Shown here: in pieces, positions 7,812 through 23,608 of the stretch
Position numbering within the stretch: the stretch's first letter is position 1
Layout: each line of letters opens with the position of its first letter
Assembly: GCA_016188215.1 (NCBI GenBank)
Contig: JACPIF010000001.1
Location: 69,923-133,922, forward strand
Length of the DNA stretch: 64,000 nucleotides
Source: Candidatus Woesearchaeota archaeon
Lineage (GTDB): Archaea > Nanobdellota > Nanobdellia > Woesearchaeales > JACPIF01
Reading direction: 5' to 3'
Position numbers and translations under genes: made by a program
Notes under the pieces: model-generated
What the model was told of the DNA's origin: nothing
Database searches by the model: none
Seen by the model: only the letters and a program-made list of their open reading frames with translations

Positions 7812-8723
7812 TGCTAATTGAGCATTTCTAAAGCGTGGTTTTTGTTCTATTAAATATGTTGCTTCAAATAACGCGACACCTATATACCTAACTATTCTGT
7901 CTTGTACCCTATCACCGATGAGCTCTGTAAAAATCTCATATGGAGACCCATCTTGTGTAATTTGATCACCAGGTTGGCAATAAACTGCACTAGAATGTAA
8001 TATTGAAGGTACATCCGTCTTCTTAACTAAGACCCCTAATTTTTTGTTCCATATGGTCATATTAATTGAGCCGATTGCCCCTCCATTGGCCGGAACTGGA
8101 ATACCTTCACCAGGCCCATGAAATTTAGGTTTTTTATATGCCTTAAGTTTTAATCTAGGGACGCCATAATCTATTATTTCTTGCAGAGTAGGCTGCTTCC
8201 AATCATCAGGAGGGTGATACGTTACAGGATTAACTGGAACCCAGAGGAGACCATCTTTAATATAATATCCTGAATCAATTTCAATTTCATTTACATATCT
8301 ACCAGGCTCAATTTCAACTTTTCTTTCTAAATGAGAAACAATTCTTTCTTCAGATAATAGTCTAGCAGGGTCTTCAATATAAGGCTTTCCCAATCGCTGA
8401 CCAGGTCTGAATAAAAAAGACGCAAGCCAATCCCTTGGCTTATAAGTTTCATCAAAGCTCTTTACTCTTGTCTTTATCTGAAATAAGCCGTTCAACTTTG
8501 GAATGTCATCCATATCTTCAATATGTGTAGTGAATGCAACTCTTCCAATGCCACTTCTAAGACTGTAGCCAGGAAACAAGGGAATTGCTTGTATATATTC
8601 TCTTTTGGAAGGGTGAACAGAAGTCGCACTTACGACACTTAACCAATCATGCGCTAGTCTAGGCCGATGAGCAATCTCGGTGATATAAGAATCTGGCAAT
8701 TGCTGCATGACAGGCGGTTCCAT
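7803..8723 (-). CDS. Uncharacterised 306-residue protein, possible inactive trypsin-fold relative
   Basis: No confident family. It is AT-richer than its neighbours and its termini are hydrophilic, without a signal peptide. Residues 225-300 carry [11 protein letters not shown], then QPGD, then [16 protein letters not shown]. Spacing and wording faintly recall a chymotrypsin-like (Nal1-like) peptidase family that has GTLG, SNNHVL, QPG-DGG and DRVA motifs, but the catalytic His and Ser motifs are absent here. The start is set to the ATG at 8723 because a TATA-like run at about 8745-8755 on this strand sits 27 bases upstream; the longer frame would start with TTG at 8738. Possibly a recent arrival between gyrA and the methylase gene. 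Confidence 0.6.
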
Positions 8724-8776
8724 ATAATAAGATTTCAATATTTGTTATAAAAATTTATTGCTAAATCTTAGATAAT

Positions 8777-8786
8777 GTTTAAATAA
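8777..8786 (+). promoter_or_regulatory. TATA box for the THUMP methylase
   Basis: GTTTAAATAA, centred 27 bases before the ATG at 8808; implies a leaderless transcript. Confidence 0.55.
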
Positions 8787-8807
8787 CGCCCCTGATTCCG
8801 GGAACCC

Positions 8808-9923
8808 ATGCAAGGGCTTGCCGTAACGCATAAAGGAATGGAGGATATTGCTGCGCAGGAGATCAAGGAGCTTATCGGGGCAAATGCAGAGATCAGAGAG
8901 CAGGCTGTGCTATTTACTATCAAGAAACTGGAGGAGCTTGCCCTGCTATGCTACAAGGCCCAGTCCGTGATAAGGGTCATGCTGCTCCTTGCAGAAACTG
9001 CCTCAATCAATGAGCTTGGCACTGCACTTGAACATACAGACATAAAGGAATGGCTGCACAACAAGAGCTTTGCAGTACGGTGCCTGAAGCAGGAGCTTGA
9101 TGAGCCGACACCTGAGATTGAGGGCAGGATTGGTGAGATTGCCTTGAACGAGGTCAAGAAGCGGAAAATTAAGGCAAAGGTTTCGCTGAAGGAGCCTGAT
9201 GTCACGCTCTTCTGCTATATAACAAAGAATGCCTGCTTCTTGGGCATAGATTTTGCAGGGTTTGACCTGAGCAAGCGCTACTACAAGATATTCCAGCATC
9301 CTGACACCCTGAAAGGCACTATTGCCTATGGGCTAGTGAGGCTGTCCGGCTATAAGCCAGGAGAGATTCTTGTTGACCCATTTTCCGGATCAGGCATCAT
9401 ACCTATAGAAGCTGCCTGTTTTGCATACAAGTATCCAGTGCAATACTATAGCAAAGATAGGTTTGCCTTCCTCAAGTTCACGAGATTTGATTTTTCCAGG
9501 ATTGACAAAGAAATACAGAAGCCTGCCAAAGCAACTATCTTCGGCCTTGACCATAATGTGAGGTATGTGGAGGTTGCCAAGAAGAATGCTACGGTGGCGG
9601 GCATCAACAAGTATGTATCTTTTTCACGGGTTGCGGTTGAATGGCATGACACCAAGCTCAAGGAGCATTCTGTTGATGTACTTGTGGGGAACCCGCCGAG
9701 CAGCTCTAAATTGGTTGCGGTGAAGGATATAAAGAAGCTTTACGATGAATTATTTTACCAGGCTGATTTTGTCATTTCTGATAATGGAAGGATAGTGCTG
9801 GCTTCCCGGGATGCGGAGCTTGCCATAGCTTCTGCTGTGAAACATGGGTTTAAAGCAGTCTTGCAGCGAGATATATACATGGGACAGCAGATGCTTAAAG
9901 TAATTCTGTTTGAGCGGGCTTAA
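8808..9923 (+). CDS. THUMP-domain tRNA/rRNA guanine-N2 methyltransferase, Trm14/RlmL-like
   Basis: Predicted to methylate a guanine base of structured RNA from S-adenosylmethionine. The N-terminal 150 residues fit a THUMP RNA-binding region. The Rossmann methylase follows with motif I DPFSGSGIIPIEAA at about 184-197 and motif IV as DVLVGNPPSSS at about 288-298. NPPSS in place of the common NPPY/F is usual for the THUMP m2G group. Of archaeal members, Trm14 (m2G6 of tRNA) is the closest by length and layout, but Trm-G10 or another target cannot be excluded. Single-gene transcript from its own TATA. Confidence 0.82.
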   Translation: MQGLAVTHKGMEDIAAQEIKELIGANAEIREQAVLFTIKKLEELALLCYKAQSVIRVMLLLAETASINELGTALEHTDIKEWLHNKSFAVRCLKQELDEPTPEIEGRIGEIALNEVKKRKIKAKVSLKEPDVTLFCYITKNACFLGIDFAGFDLSKRYYKIFQHPDTLKGTIAYGLVRLSGYKPGEILVDPFSGSGIIPIEAACFAYKYPVQYYSKDRFAFLKFTRFDFSRIDKEIQKPAKATIFGLDHNVRYVEVAKKNATVAGINKYVSFSRVAVEWHDTKLKEHSVDVLVGNPPSSSKLVAVKDIKKLYDELFYQADFVISDNGRIVLASRDAELAIASAVKHGFKAVLQRDIYMGQQMLKVILFERA

Positions 9924-17155: not shown

Positions 17156-17940
17156 TGGAAATACAGCTCATAGAAAAGCATAAGGAGAAAGATACAGTTA
17201 CCTTTTCATTGAAAGATGCAACACCGGCATTTGCAAACATGCTGCGGCGCTATATCATGGAGGAAGTCCCGGTGATGAGCATTGAGGATGTTGAATTCCG
17301 CAAGAATTCATCAGTCCTGTATGATGAGATGCTTGCCCAGCGGCTCGGGCTCGTTCCTTTGAAGACAGACTTGAAGTCATATAACCTGCCTGAGAAATGC
17401 AAATGCGAAGGAAAGGGATGCGCATCATGCCAGCTGAAGCTGGTCCTGAGGGCGAAAGGGCCGGGCGTAATATACACTTCAGAAATCAAGAGCAAGGATC
17501 CTAAGGTAAAGCCGGTGCACCATAAAATGCCGATTGTGAAGCTGCTGAAAGGGCAGCTGCTTGAAGTTGAGGCTACCGCAACCCTCGGCAAGGGCAAGCA
17601 GCATGTGAAATGGAGCCCAGGGCATGTGTACTACCGCAACAAGCCGATCGTTGAGATGGCAGGCGAGCCGGATGCAGAGGCAGCTGCACGCTATCCATAT
17701 ATTTTTGATACAAAAGGGAGCAAAGTTGTGATCAATAAAGATATGATACTGAAATATGATGTACTGGAAGATGTCCAGGCAGCCACAAAAGGAAAAGTAA
17801 AGGTGGCTGAGAAAGAAGACGAGTTCATATTTACTGTAGAAAGCTTTGGACAGCTTGAGCATGCGGATATGGTAGCAGAGGCGCTGCGCATATTTGAGGA
17901 GCATGTTGAAGAGTTTTCCGAGAAAATCAAGAAAACATAA
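17155..17940 (+). CDS. rpoD: DNA-directed RNA polymerase subunit D
   Basis: The archaeal counterpart of Rpb3/alpha-NTD; with subunit L it nucleates polymerase assembly. 261 residues. FANMLRRYIMEEVPVMSIEDVE is the dimerisation motif; the zinc-type CKCEGKGCASC at about residues 80-90 corresponds to the Rpb3 CxC..CxxC site. The insert that carries the Fe-S cluster in some archaea has no cysteines here, so no cluster is expected. The start is the ATG at 17155 (MEIQLIEK), not the earlier frame opening inside rps11. tRNA-Leu follows at once. Confidence 0.95.
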   Translation: MEIQLIEKHKEKDTVTFSLKDATPAFANMLRRYIMEEVPVMSIEDVEFRKNSSVLYDEMLAQRLGLVPLKTDLKSYNLPEKCKCEGKGCASCQLKLVLRAKGPGVIYTSEIKSKDPKVKPVHHKMPIVKLLKGQLLEVEATATLGKGKQHVKWSPGHVYYRNKPIVEMAGEPDAEAAARYPYIFDTKGSKVVINKDMILKYDVLEDVQAATKGKVKVAEKEDEFIFTVESFGQLEHADMVAEALRIFEEHVEEFSEKIKKT

Positions 17941-17945
17941 CTTAT

Positions 17946-18060
17946 GCGGGGGTGGCAGAGCCTGGCCAAATGCGCTATTTCATTCCCAAATGGGGATGGA
18001 GCGTAAGCTTGAGGGGCTAGTCCCTTAGTGGGTGCGCGTGTTCGAATCACGTCCCCCGCA
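17946..18060 (+). tRNA. tRNA-Leu (GAG) with candidate intron at 29/30
   Basis: Acceptor GCGGGGG/CCCCCGC (17946-17952 with 18053-18059), A73 at 18060, T arm GCGTG-TTCGAAT-CACGT, and a variable arm with CCC-TTAGT-GGG. The anticodon arm closes only if 17978-18006 is removed: CTA + GC then pairs perfectly with GCTAG around the loop TTGAGGG (anticodon GAG, 18011-18013). The 29-base insert folds as CATTCCC-AAAT-GGGGATG. CCA is not encoded. A one-base shift of the intron borders gives the same product. Confidence 0.85.
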
Positions 18061-18104: not shown

Positions 18105-18203
18105 GTAGTCGGCGAGATGAATCTCGCCTCCGTGGCGCGAATGAGTCCCCCGAATCGCATTTACATAAAATCGGGGGACATATTGTGGCGCGCATTTCGC
18201 GCC
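18105..18203 (-). repeat. Multi-hairpin intergenic element, copy 2 (inverse orientation)
   Basis: GGCGAGATGAATCTCGCC (18111-18128), GTCCCCCGA (about 18144) with TCGGGGGAC (about 18171), and GGCGCGCATTTCGCGCC (18187-18203). Same module order and wording as the copy at 14446, lying inside the r-protein operon between tRNA-Leu and rpl18e. Confidence 0.72.
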
Positions 18204-18240: not shown

Positions 18241-18606
18241 ATGGCAATAAGAACAGGACCGACAAACCCAATCATGCAGAGCCTAATACAGGAACTCAGG
18301 AAAACAAGCAGCGAGCAGAAGATTCCATTATGGGACAGGATAGCTGATGACCTTGAGAAGCCGACAAGGCAGCGCAGGGCAGTCAACCTATCAAAGATAA
18401 ACAGGTTTACAGAAGAGAATGAGATGATCATTGTGCCGGGAAAAGTGCTTGGCTCCGGTGCGCTCAGCCACAAGCTCACAATTGCTGCATTCAGCTTTTC
18501 AGCAGGCGCGCTTGAGAAGATAAGCAAGGTGCAGGCCAAGGCAATCTCCATCAAAGAGCTGATGCAGCAGCCCATCAAGGACAAGCGGGTGAGGATTTTA
18601 GGATGA
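18241..18606 (+). CDS. rpl18e: 50S ribosomal protein L18e (eL18)
   Basis: Archaeal/eukaryal large-subunit protein. 121 residues with TGPTNPIMQSLIQELRK at the start, NLSKINRFTEENEMIIVPGK, GSGALSHKLTIAAFSFS and the end KDKRVRILG. This is the canonical position before rpl13 and rps9. An AT-rich possible promoter lies at 18212-18225, so the second half of the operon may be expressed apart from the first. Confidence 0.95.
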   Translation: MAIRTGPTNPIMQSLIQELRKTSSEQKIPLWDRIADDLEKPTRQRRAVNLSKINRFTEENEMIIVPGKVLGSGALSHKLTIAAFSFSAGALEKISKVQAKAISIKELMQQPIKDKRVRILG

Positions 18607-20959: not shown

Positions 20960-23608
20960 ATGGTTGATTTGAATGCAATAGCCAAGAAGTGGCAACAGAG
21001 ATGGGAAGAGGCCAAGCTGTTTGAAGTGAAAGAGAATACCAGAAAGAAAAAGTTCTACTGCTTAGAGATGTACCCGTATCCCTCTGAAAGGCTGCACATG
21101 GGGCATCTCAGGAATTATTCCATAGGTGATGCGCTTGCGCGCTATAAGAGGATGCGCGGCTTCAATGTGCTCTACCCTATGGGGTATGATGCATTTGGGT
21201 TGCCTGCTGAAAATGCCGCTATCAAGAACAATGCAGATCCAGCTGAATGGACCATCCGGAACATGAATGCTATCAGGCAGCAGCAGAAAAGCCTGGGATT
21301 TAGCTATGACTGGGGCAGGGAGATCGCAAGCCTGTGGCCGGATTACTATAAATGGAATCAATGGATATTCTTGAAATTGTATGAGAATGGGCTGGCATAC
21401 AAGAAACATGCTGCTGTAAACTGGTGCCCAAGCTGCAATACTGTTCTTGCGAATGAGCAGGTAGAGGCAGGATTATGCTGGCGCTGCAAGTCACCGGTGG
21501 AGCAGCGGGAACTGGAGCAGTGGTTCTTCAGGATAACGCAATATGCTGATGAGCTGCTTAAAGATATCAGGAAGCTGGAGCATTGGCCGGAGCGCGTCAA
21601 AGTAATGCAGGAGAATTGGATCGGGAAAAGCGAAGGCGCATCCGTATACTTTGACCTGGCTGCGCATGAGGAAACACTTGAGGTCTTTACGACACGAGCA
21701 GACACGCTGTTCGGCGCAACATTTATGGTGCTGGCTCCTGAGCACCCACTGGTACCCCAGATAACCACAATGGAGCATGAGGCTGAGGTCAAGAAATATA
21801 TTGAGGCAGCAAGGAGGGAGCGTGAGCTTGAGCGTGAAGAGAAAACTGAGAAGACAGGAGTCTTTACAGGAGCGTATGCAATCAACCCTGTGAATGGCAA
21901 GCAAATTCCTATCTGGATATCAGATTATGTTCTCATGGGCTATGGAACCGGAGCCATAATGGCAGTTCCTGCGCATGATGAGAGAGACATGGAATTCGCA
22001 CAGAAGTTCAAGTTGCCCATCGTTGAAGTGGTAAGGAAAGAGGGGCATGAAGAAATGCTCCACTGCTACACAGAAGGCGGCATACTAGTGAATTCTGAGG
22101 AATTCACAGGAATGGAGTCAAGTGATGCAATAAAAAAAATTGTAGAGAAACTGCACAAAAAAGGAAAGGCTAAGCACAGCGTTCAATATAAGCTGAGAGA
22201 CTGGCTGATTTCAAGGCAAAGATACTGGGGAACCCCTATACCTATCATTTACTGTGAGAAATGCGGCATAGTGGCAGTTCCTTATGAGCAGCTTCCTGTA
22301 CTGCTTCCTGCTTCTAATAAGGTCAAGTTTACAGGCCAGGGCAATCCGCTTGAGACAAACCATGAGTTTGTCAATATACGTTGCCCAAAATGCCATGGGA
22401 ACGCCAAGCGGGAAACTGATACTATGGATACTTTTGTTGATTCCTCATGGTATTTCCTGAGGTACTGCTCACCTAAATATGAGAAGTTGCCGTTTGACAA
22501 GAAAGCAGCAATGTACTGGATGCCGGTTGATCAGTACATCGGAGGGATTGAGCACGCCATCCTGCACCTGCTGTATGCACGGTTTTTTACCAAGGTGCTC
22601 CGGGATTTGGGATTGGTTGAGGCAGATGAGCCTTTCATGAGGCTCCTGACACAAGGAATGGTAATCAAAGACAGGGCAAAGATGTCAAAGAGCCTGGGGA
22701 ACGTGGTAGATCCAGAGGAGATAACCAGCAAGTACGGGCCTGATACTGCAAGATTATTCATACTGTTTGCTGCACTGCCTGAAAAAGAGCTGGACTGGAG
22801 CAACCAGGGCGTGCAGGGCAGCTATAGATTCCTGCAGAGATTGTACCGGCTTGCAGAGCTGGAGATAAAGGCAAAGGGTAATGATGATAAGAAGAAATAC
22901 GTCATTAGTATGCTGCAAAGGACTATACTTAAGGCAACTGAGCATGTAGATGAGATGCGGTTCAGCCTGGCTCTTGGCGCACTGATGGAGTATGCAAACA
23001 TACTTGCAAAGTATGCCGAGCATATTGACAGTAAAACATACAGGGAATCCCTGAAAAAGCTTGTTGTCATGATGGCACCATTCACGCCGCATATCTCAGA
23101 AGAGATGTGGGAGATGCTTGCAGGAAAAGGATTTGTTTCTGTACAGGAATGGCCGGAAGCAGACGATAAATTGCTTGATGAGGAGATTGAGGCGGCTGAA
23201 GAGCTTGTGGAAAGCACAATGGCTGATATCAATGAAGTGCTGCAGCTGGTCAAGAAGAAACCTGGCAAGATAACTTTGTTTATTGCAGAATCATGGAAAT
23301 ACCAGTACCTGCACAAGCTCAAGACAATACTTTCCAAGACCTACAACATGAAAGAGGTCATGGGGCATGTCATGGACAAGGAGCATGCTGCAGAAATAGG
23401 AAGCCTGACGCCAAAGCTTATGAAGGATACATCGCGGATACCCAAGACGCTGCTTTCACATGAGGCTGAACTGCGGGCGCTACAGAGCAACCGGGAAGCT
23501 GTCGCGCAGAGGTTTAATGCGGCAGTTGAAGTTGTGAGCGCAGCCAAGTCTAATGAGCAGAAGGCGAAGCAGGCAATGCCGGGGAAGCCTGCTATATTTG
23601 TGGAGTGA
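20960..23608 (+). CDS. leuS: Leucyl-tRNA synthetase, bacterial-type
   Basis: Charges tRNA-Leu. 882 residues. [17 protein letters not shown] is the HIGH region, a zinc-binding insert reads CPSC...CWRC near 155-175, a CP1 editing domain is present ([17 protein letters not shown]), and [10 protein letters not shown] is the KMSKS loop. The sentence [19 protein letters not shown] is characteristic of the bacterial form; archaeal LeuRS reads differently and is longer. The gene therefore looks horizontally acquired, as is common in DPANN. tRNA-Leu(GAG) is 2.9 kb upstream. Single-gene transcript. Confidence 0.95.

Follow-up and report, generated by a model that had tools for sequence, protein, structure and literature searches.

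A relaxed bulge-helix-bulge intron at position 29/30 of a tRNA-Leu(GAG) gene in a woesearchaeal genome with one alpha-type splicing endonuclease gene

Archaeal tRNA splicing has been described as a co-evolution in which homomeric endonucleases accompany strict introns at position 37/38, while heteromeric or loop-bearing endonucleases accompany scattered, relaxed introns. In the published accounts, the alpha4 and alpha2 types of the endonuclease EndA act on canonical motifs only (PMC4033280), relaxed motifs are cut efficiently by the (alpha-beta)2 and epsilon2 enzymes only (PMC6379350), and intron diversity is tied to the crenarchaea-specific loop (CSL) and the ARMAN loop (ASL) (PMC12397907). 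Position 29/30 is listed among the known non-canonical sites of archaeal tRNA introns in PMC4090602. Introns of this kind, from Crenarchaeota and Nanoarchaeota, share their insertion position, their bulge-helix-bulge (BHB) or HBh' architecture and their short length with the intron reported here. Reviews place them in (alpha-beta)2 or epsilon2 lineages, whereas the order to which our genome belongs has a single alpha-type EndA.

The best sequence match of this EndA is the alpha chain of Nanoarchaeum equitans (PDB 3iey_A; 4.6e-37), which forms a heteromer with NEQ261 (3iey_B); such a partner was not found in our genome. The alpha4 enzyme of Methanocaldococcus jannaschii (PDB 1a79) resembles it in single-subunit size, its two domains and a short loop before the LSL-EA helix, but according to reviews cuts the canonical BHB only, whereas the lineage studied here has recurrent relaxed motifs. 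The ARMAN epsilon2 enzyme (Micrarchaeum, PDB 4fz2/9w2k) likewise comes from the DPANN, with introns at several tRNA positions and the same catalytic domain. The ARMAN-2 protein, however, is a three-unit chain of 395 aa bearing the ASL (Y160, K161), whereas our EndA has about 200 aa and an alignment gap at both ASL residues. A search of titles and abstract openings that covered few subscription papers yielded nothing on point for tRNA introns of DPANN or Woesearchaeota.

The tRNA-Leu(GAG) gene and its intron

We analysed a stretch of 64,000 nucleotides (the window) from a Candidatus Woesearchaeota genome of 1.11 Mb in 13 contigs that is 91% complete. Direct reading of positions 17946-18060 revealed a type II tRNA-Leu with a 7-bp acceptor stem, a D arm, a long variable arm (TCCC-TTAGT-GGG), a T arm and discriminator A (Table 1). 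The anticodon loop reads TTGAGGG, and direct reading confirmed what an earlier note on this DNA had claimed, that the two sides of the 5-bp anticodon stem (CTAGC/GCTAG) can pair only once 17978-18006 is removed. Excision restores the cloverleaf, as expected of an archaeal BHB tRNA intron at 29/30. When the spliced 86-mer was submitted to ARAGORN, it was called as tRNA-Leu(gag); the unspliced gene received no call and, with the intron option, was misread as Gly(ccc). Over the whole window both ARAGORN and Rfam reported the same tRNA-His alone and missed the Leu gene. The genome, at 91% completeness, yielded no second GAG gene.

Table 1. Positions of the interrupted tRNA-Leu(GAG) gene, its splice motif and its neighbours in the window, followed by interrupted tRNAs resolved elsewhere in the genome
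Feature	Position	Strand	Details
RpoD (archaeal RNA polymerase subunit D)	17158..17940	+	PF01000, PF01193
Exon 1 of tRNA-Leu(GAG), positions 1-29	17946..17977	+	sequence reading, alignment to relatives, ARAGORN
5' strand of 4-bp BHB core (GCGC)	17972..17975	+	motif scoring; paired in centroid fold too
5' splice-site bulge TA/T (slash, cut)	17976..17978	+	3 nt
29-nt BHB (HBh') intron between tRNA positions 29 and 30	17978..18006	+	motif scoring, spliced product
Intron helix h'	17979..18000	+	17979-17987 paired with 17992-18000 (9 bp), loop AAAT
3' strand of 4-bp BHB core (GCGT)	18001..18004	+	motif scoring; paired in centroid fold too
3' splice-site bulge AA/G (slash, cut)	18005..18007	+	3 nt
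Exon 2 of tRNA-Leu(GAG), positions 30-73	18007..18060	+	anticodon GAG 18011-18013; no encoded CCA
Ribosomal protein L18e, conserved downstream neighbour of this tRNA	18241..18606	+	PF00828
Leu(UAA), L017			D-loop intron; joint scoring
Leu(CAA), L028			D-loop intron; joint scoring
Leu(CAG), L139	G000:C2:73442-73584	-	one D-loop and one T-loop intron; missed by Rfam genome search
L029			T-loop intron; joint scoring
Gln(UUG), L026			D-stem intron; joint scoring
Thr(CGU), L025			introns at 30/31 and 37/38; joint scoring

Both exon-intron joints lie in 3-nt bulges separated by a core in which four of four pairs form, the geometry that defines a BHB motif. The hairpin of the insert, which had been read as 7 bp, extends to 9 bp and continues into this core. 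When the 29-nt insert was shuffled 200,000 times, a 4-bp core together with an intron helix of at least 8 bp was reached once. The outer exon helix has an uninterrupted run of 0 and 2/4 pairs, which is short of the strict hBHBh' form; since this helix is absent, the site falls into the relaxed HBh' class. In the centroid fold of the precursor both the BHB core and the intron helix are present, and the minimum-free-energy (MFE) fold has the intron hairpin without the core. The boundaries are fixed by two independent tests, namely the BHB geometry and a gene of the relative G005 that occupies the same operon place, naturally lacks the intron and matches the spliced window tRNA at 85/86 positions. 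The intron is thus genuine and of a known class, and the tRNA-Leu(GAG) with a 29/30 intron proposed in the earlier note is borne out. Two other registers were considered and rejected. Register (31,62), displaced by one and excising 31 nt with a core of 4, an h' of 10 and an outer helix of 2 bp, pairs slightly better and breaks the anticodon stem; register (31,60) gives an identical mature tRNA and pairs at only 3/4 core positions.

The gene order around the tRNA is S13-S4-S11-RpoD-tRNA-L18e-L13-S9, and these neighbours uphold the earlier placement of the gene inside a ribosomal-protein operon. Since the tRNA begins only 5 nt past the rpoD stop, it is likely processed out of a longer transcript of this operon, as had also been suggested. 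We found no report of a tRNA-L18e operon in the literature search; in haloarchaea a tRNA-Leu precedes the L18e gene. Two perfect hairpins lie between the tRNA and L18e, within 18145-18203: GTCCCCCGA/TCGGGGGAC at 18145-18153 / 18171-18179, and GGCGCG/CGCGCC at 18187-18192 / 18198-18203. Close to this archaeal tRNA-Leu gene, at 20960-23608 of the window, lies a gene for leucyl-tRNA synthetase whose editing domain, PF13603, is typical of bacterial LeuRS.

Further non-canonical tRNA introns of the genome were resolved by jointly scoring splice motif and cloverleaf (Table 1). An exhaustive search of whole pre-tRNAs for BHB motifs had no mature-tRNA constraint and produced mostly chance matches, for which reason joint scoring took its place. 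Even so, some genes with a canonical intron or with two introns (L016, L018, L023, L031 and L032) had implausible solutions ranked first, and these were left out of the solved set. Lys(CUU) (L030, read by eye only) and Phe (L031) appear multiply interrupted and gave no clean solution.

The same locus across the order

We then compared this locus in 60 genomes, all of the same order as the window genome and none of its genus or family. L18e was found in 59 of the 60 genomes, our own included (G026 gave no L18e match), and the stretch upstream of it was read in each. A tRNA-Leu could be aligned at 50 of the 59 loci; L047, L059, L107, L111, L115, L119, L130, L131 and L132 were excluded for want of a credible alignment. 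Among the 50 aligned tRNA-Leu(GAG) genes beside L18e, 27 are intron-free, 14 have a 37/38 intron only, 7 have non-canonical introns only and 2 (L037 and L127) combine both kinds, so that non-canonical introns occur in 9/50. The seven genes with non-canonical introns only are interrupted at 29/30 (the window gene and L053), in the D loop (L034, L058, L117) or in the T loop (L044, L126). The T-loop introns, with a 5-bp outer helix and 3/4 core pairs, are close to strict, and the introns at 29/30 and most of those in the D loop are HBh'. Motif scoring found no good splice motif for the D-loop intron of L034. In one genome (G053, L040) the tRNA-Leu beside L18e carries the anticodon AAG instead of GAG; AAG is unusual for archaea.

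The second 29/30 intron (L053, genome G046) is a diverged 31-nt insert with a 4-bp core (GCGC/GTGT) and a 10-bp h'. When it was compared with the window gene, residues 31 and 45 of the 86-mer, which are tRNA positions 28 and 42, were found to co-vary, keeping the anticodon stem across the intron, and the intron helix remains paired where one or both of its strands have changed. In a small L18e-L13-S9 tree with weak backbone support, to which RpoD adds 40 columns from one row and gaps elsewhere, G046 and the window genome are not sisters, which implies either two separate uses of the 29/30 site or frequent loss. In the same tree the MAGs L007 (Nanoarchaeota) and L008 (Woesearchaeota) nest among order members, so that the window genome probably belongs to a DPANN archaeon of this kind.

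The splicing endonuclease and the ligase gene

According to the earlier note, an intron at this site needs a heteromeric endonuclease of broad specificity. A search of the genome with PF01974 gave one match at E<=10, a single alpha-type gene (L001) whose product (200-204 aa) carries both PF02778 and PF01974, and neither a beta subunit nor a second EndA copy was found at that threshold; the expectation of a broad-specificity EndA is therefore not supported. In a control, the same search recovered alpha and beta genes in 3/3 crenarchaeal genomes, the betas at E 2e-11 to 7e-6 even though they are very diverged. Across the order, 58 of the 60 genomes gave an EndA match, 57 of them above the cut-off, and in nearly all cases there was one strong match; the exceptions are G035, with two matches, and G037, with two fragments. 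Near-complete relatives that combine a non-canonical Leu intron with one EndA gene include G004 (99%), G003 (97%), G009 (95%) and G025 (94%).

We also examined the known specificity loops. The spacing from YG to LSL-EA is 9 aa in our EndA, 8-10 in those of the order and 18 in crenarchaeal alphas, and by alignment the CSL (15-18 aa with a Lys) is absent from our protein. This survey covered 59 EndA loci, with no match at L207, four loci unparsed (L185, L192, L199, L204) and 54 parsed, of which 53 have a loop of 8-10 aa; the remaining one, L065, was misparsed by the pattern and reads 9 in the alignment. The control loops L093, L096 and L098 were misparsed as well, and L093 reads 18 in the alignment. 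PMC6379350 describes a heteromeric EndA in M. kandleri that also lacks the CSL, so that absence of this loop alone is not decisive against a heteromer. The catalytic Tyr, His and Lys are kept in our EndA, as is an acidic loop close to the C terminus, which according to the same source alpha4 enzymes use for assembly. The genome thus offers neither the separate beta gene of an (alpha-beta)2 enzyme nor the fused three-unit chain of about 390 aa with an ASL of an epsilon2 enzyme, and its single gene encodes the N and C domains, the catalytic Y/H/K and the acidic loop of an alpha4 enzyme. Judged by sequence the protein is of alpha4 type, and it would presumably assemble as a homotetramer. An ORF that by eye resembles tRNase Z (L001, 213-1103, minus strand) lies divergently next to endA.

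Genes for RtcB and Archease are present in the genome. The rtcB gene, which lies outside the window, is split across three reading frames by two 31-nt BHB inserts (L142, 1574-1604 and 1682-1712; G000:C11, about 8722-8860), both of which have a complete 4-bp core, with intron helices of 10 or 9 bp; shuffles nearly as good numbered 0 and 1 of 100,000. Excision of both yields a 488-aa RtcB that matches the whole Pfam model. In the relative G037 a BHB insert of 32 nt interrupts rtcB at exactly the same codon position, and in G046 a weaker insert sits two codons farther upstream; rtcB is uninterrupted in most of the remaining relatives. Because the unspliced message is predicted to give only a 77-aa fragment, the ligase would need its own product in order to be made. 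In G026 (C87:17951-20749, L176) a single 987-aa frame contains the rtcB pieces together with a large insert that may be an intein. Titles and abstract openings, from a search in which subscription papers were mostly out of scope, held nothing on point for rtcB introns. According to PMC7714728, cbf5 is the sole protein-coding BHB intron reported by 2020, apart from the mRNA substrate of that paper itself. If spliced, the rtcB introns would extend the protein-coding BHB class beyond cbf5.

Maturation of the tRNA and competing explanations

We propose that this tRNA-Leu, the only GAG gene found in a DPANN (Woesearchaeota/Nanoarchaeota-like) genome, is transcribed within the ribosomal-protein operon and that its precursor would fold into a relaxed BHB, with core and intron helix present and the outer exon helix absent. 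EndA would cut each bulge behind its second base, RtcB would ligate the resulting exons, and the ends would be trimmed by RNase P and tRNase Z; EndA would act on the relaxed motif without a beta subunit and without a CSL or ASL. To the gene, intron boundaries, BHB geometry, conserved operon place and single alpha-type EndA gene described above, this account adds transcription, splicing, the alpha4 state and cutting of a relaxed motif as steps that would follow, and as a whole we consider it highly probable.

The intron could be real and the classical rule still hold, if a heteromeric or accessory partner of EndA escaped the sequence search. Such a partner is what the published rule predicts, since, according to PMC6379350 and PMC4033280, relaxed motifs are cut efficiently by (alpha-beta)2 and epsilon2 enzymes only, and because the genome is 91% complete in 13 contigs a beta gene could be missing, or could be too diverged. 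The one-EndA pattern, however, recurs in relatives more complete than the window genome and nearly throughout the order, and the search that returned one gene at E<=10 detects even very diverged crenarchaeal betas. Moreover, our own EndA matches the Nanoarchaeum beta chain 3iey_B at 3.2e-15, and it keeps the acidic loop of alpha4 assembly. We therefore regard a hidden partner as unlikely.

Two further explanations dispense with splicing. A decayed copy, in which the insert is a mutation and CUU/CUC are read by another tRNA, would fit the failure of standard tRNA finders to detect the gene, but decay would hardly leave every stem of the spliced form intact, a near-perfect match to an intron-free relative, BHB geometry in the insert and a conserved place beside L18e in a genome where no other GAG gene was found; we consider it very improbable. 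The reading in which the insert stays in the mature tRNA and enlarges its anticodon stem draws on the low free energy of the unspliced form (MFE -52.3 kcal/mol, z -2.68). It would nevertheless leave the anticodon stem broken and the loop displaced, and G046 conserves the BHB rather than the insert sequence, which makes retention scarcely credible. Excision of a relaxed BHB intron by the alpha-type EndA is our preferred explanation.

As far as our searches reach, the novelty lies in the combination: scattered relaxed introns occur in an order for which a plain alpha-type protein is the only splicing endonuclease in sight, and the failed expectation of a heteromeric enzyme is of more interest than the intron itself. 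A wider proposition, for and against which we find ourselves evenly divided, is that relaxed non-canonical introns are spliced throughout this DPANN order by a homomeric alpha-type EndA with neither of the known specificity loops. Broad specificity would then have arisen once more by another route, perhaps through the conserved GVKPGEDH loop, which lies between the catalytic Tyr and His, and some members would contain a feedback in which rtcB mRNA needs the same splicing before the ligase is made. In practical terms, the tRNA sets of such genomes look incomplete when standard finders are used. The rule that EndA type and intron class evolve together seems to be broken by this order in many genomes, and the order would therefore offer a direct test of what sets EndA specificity.
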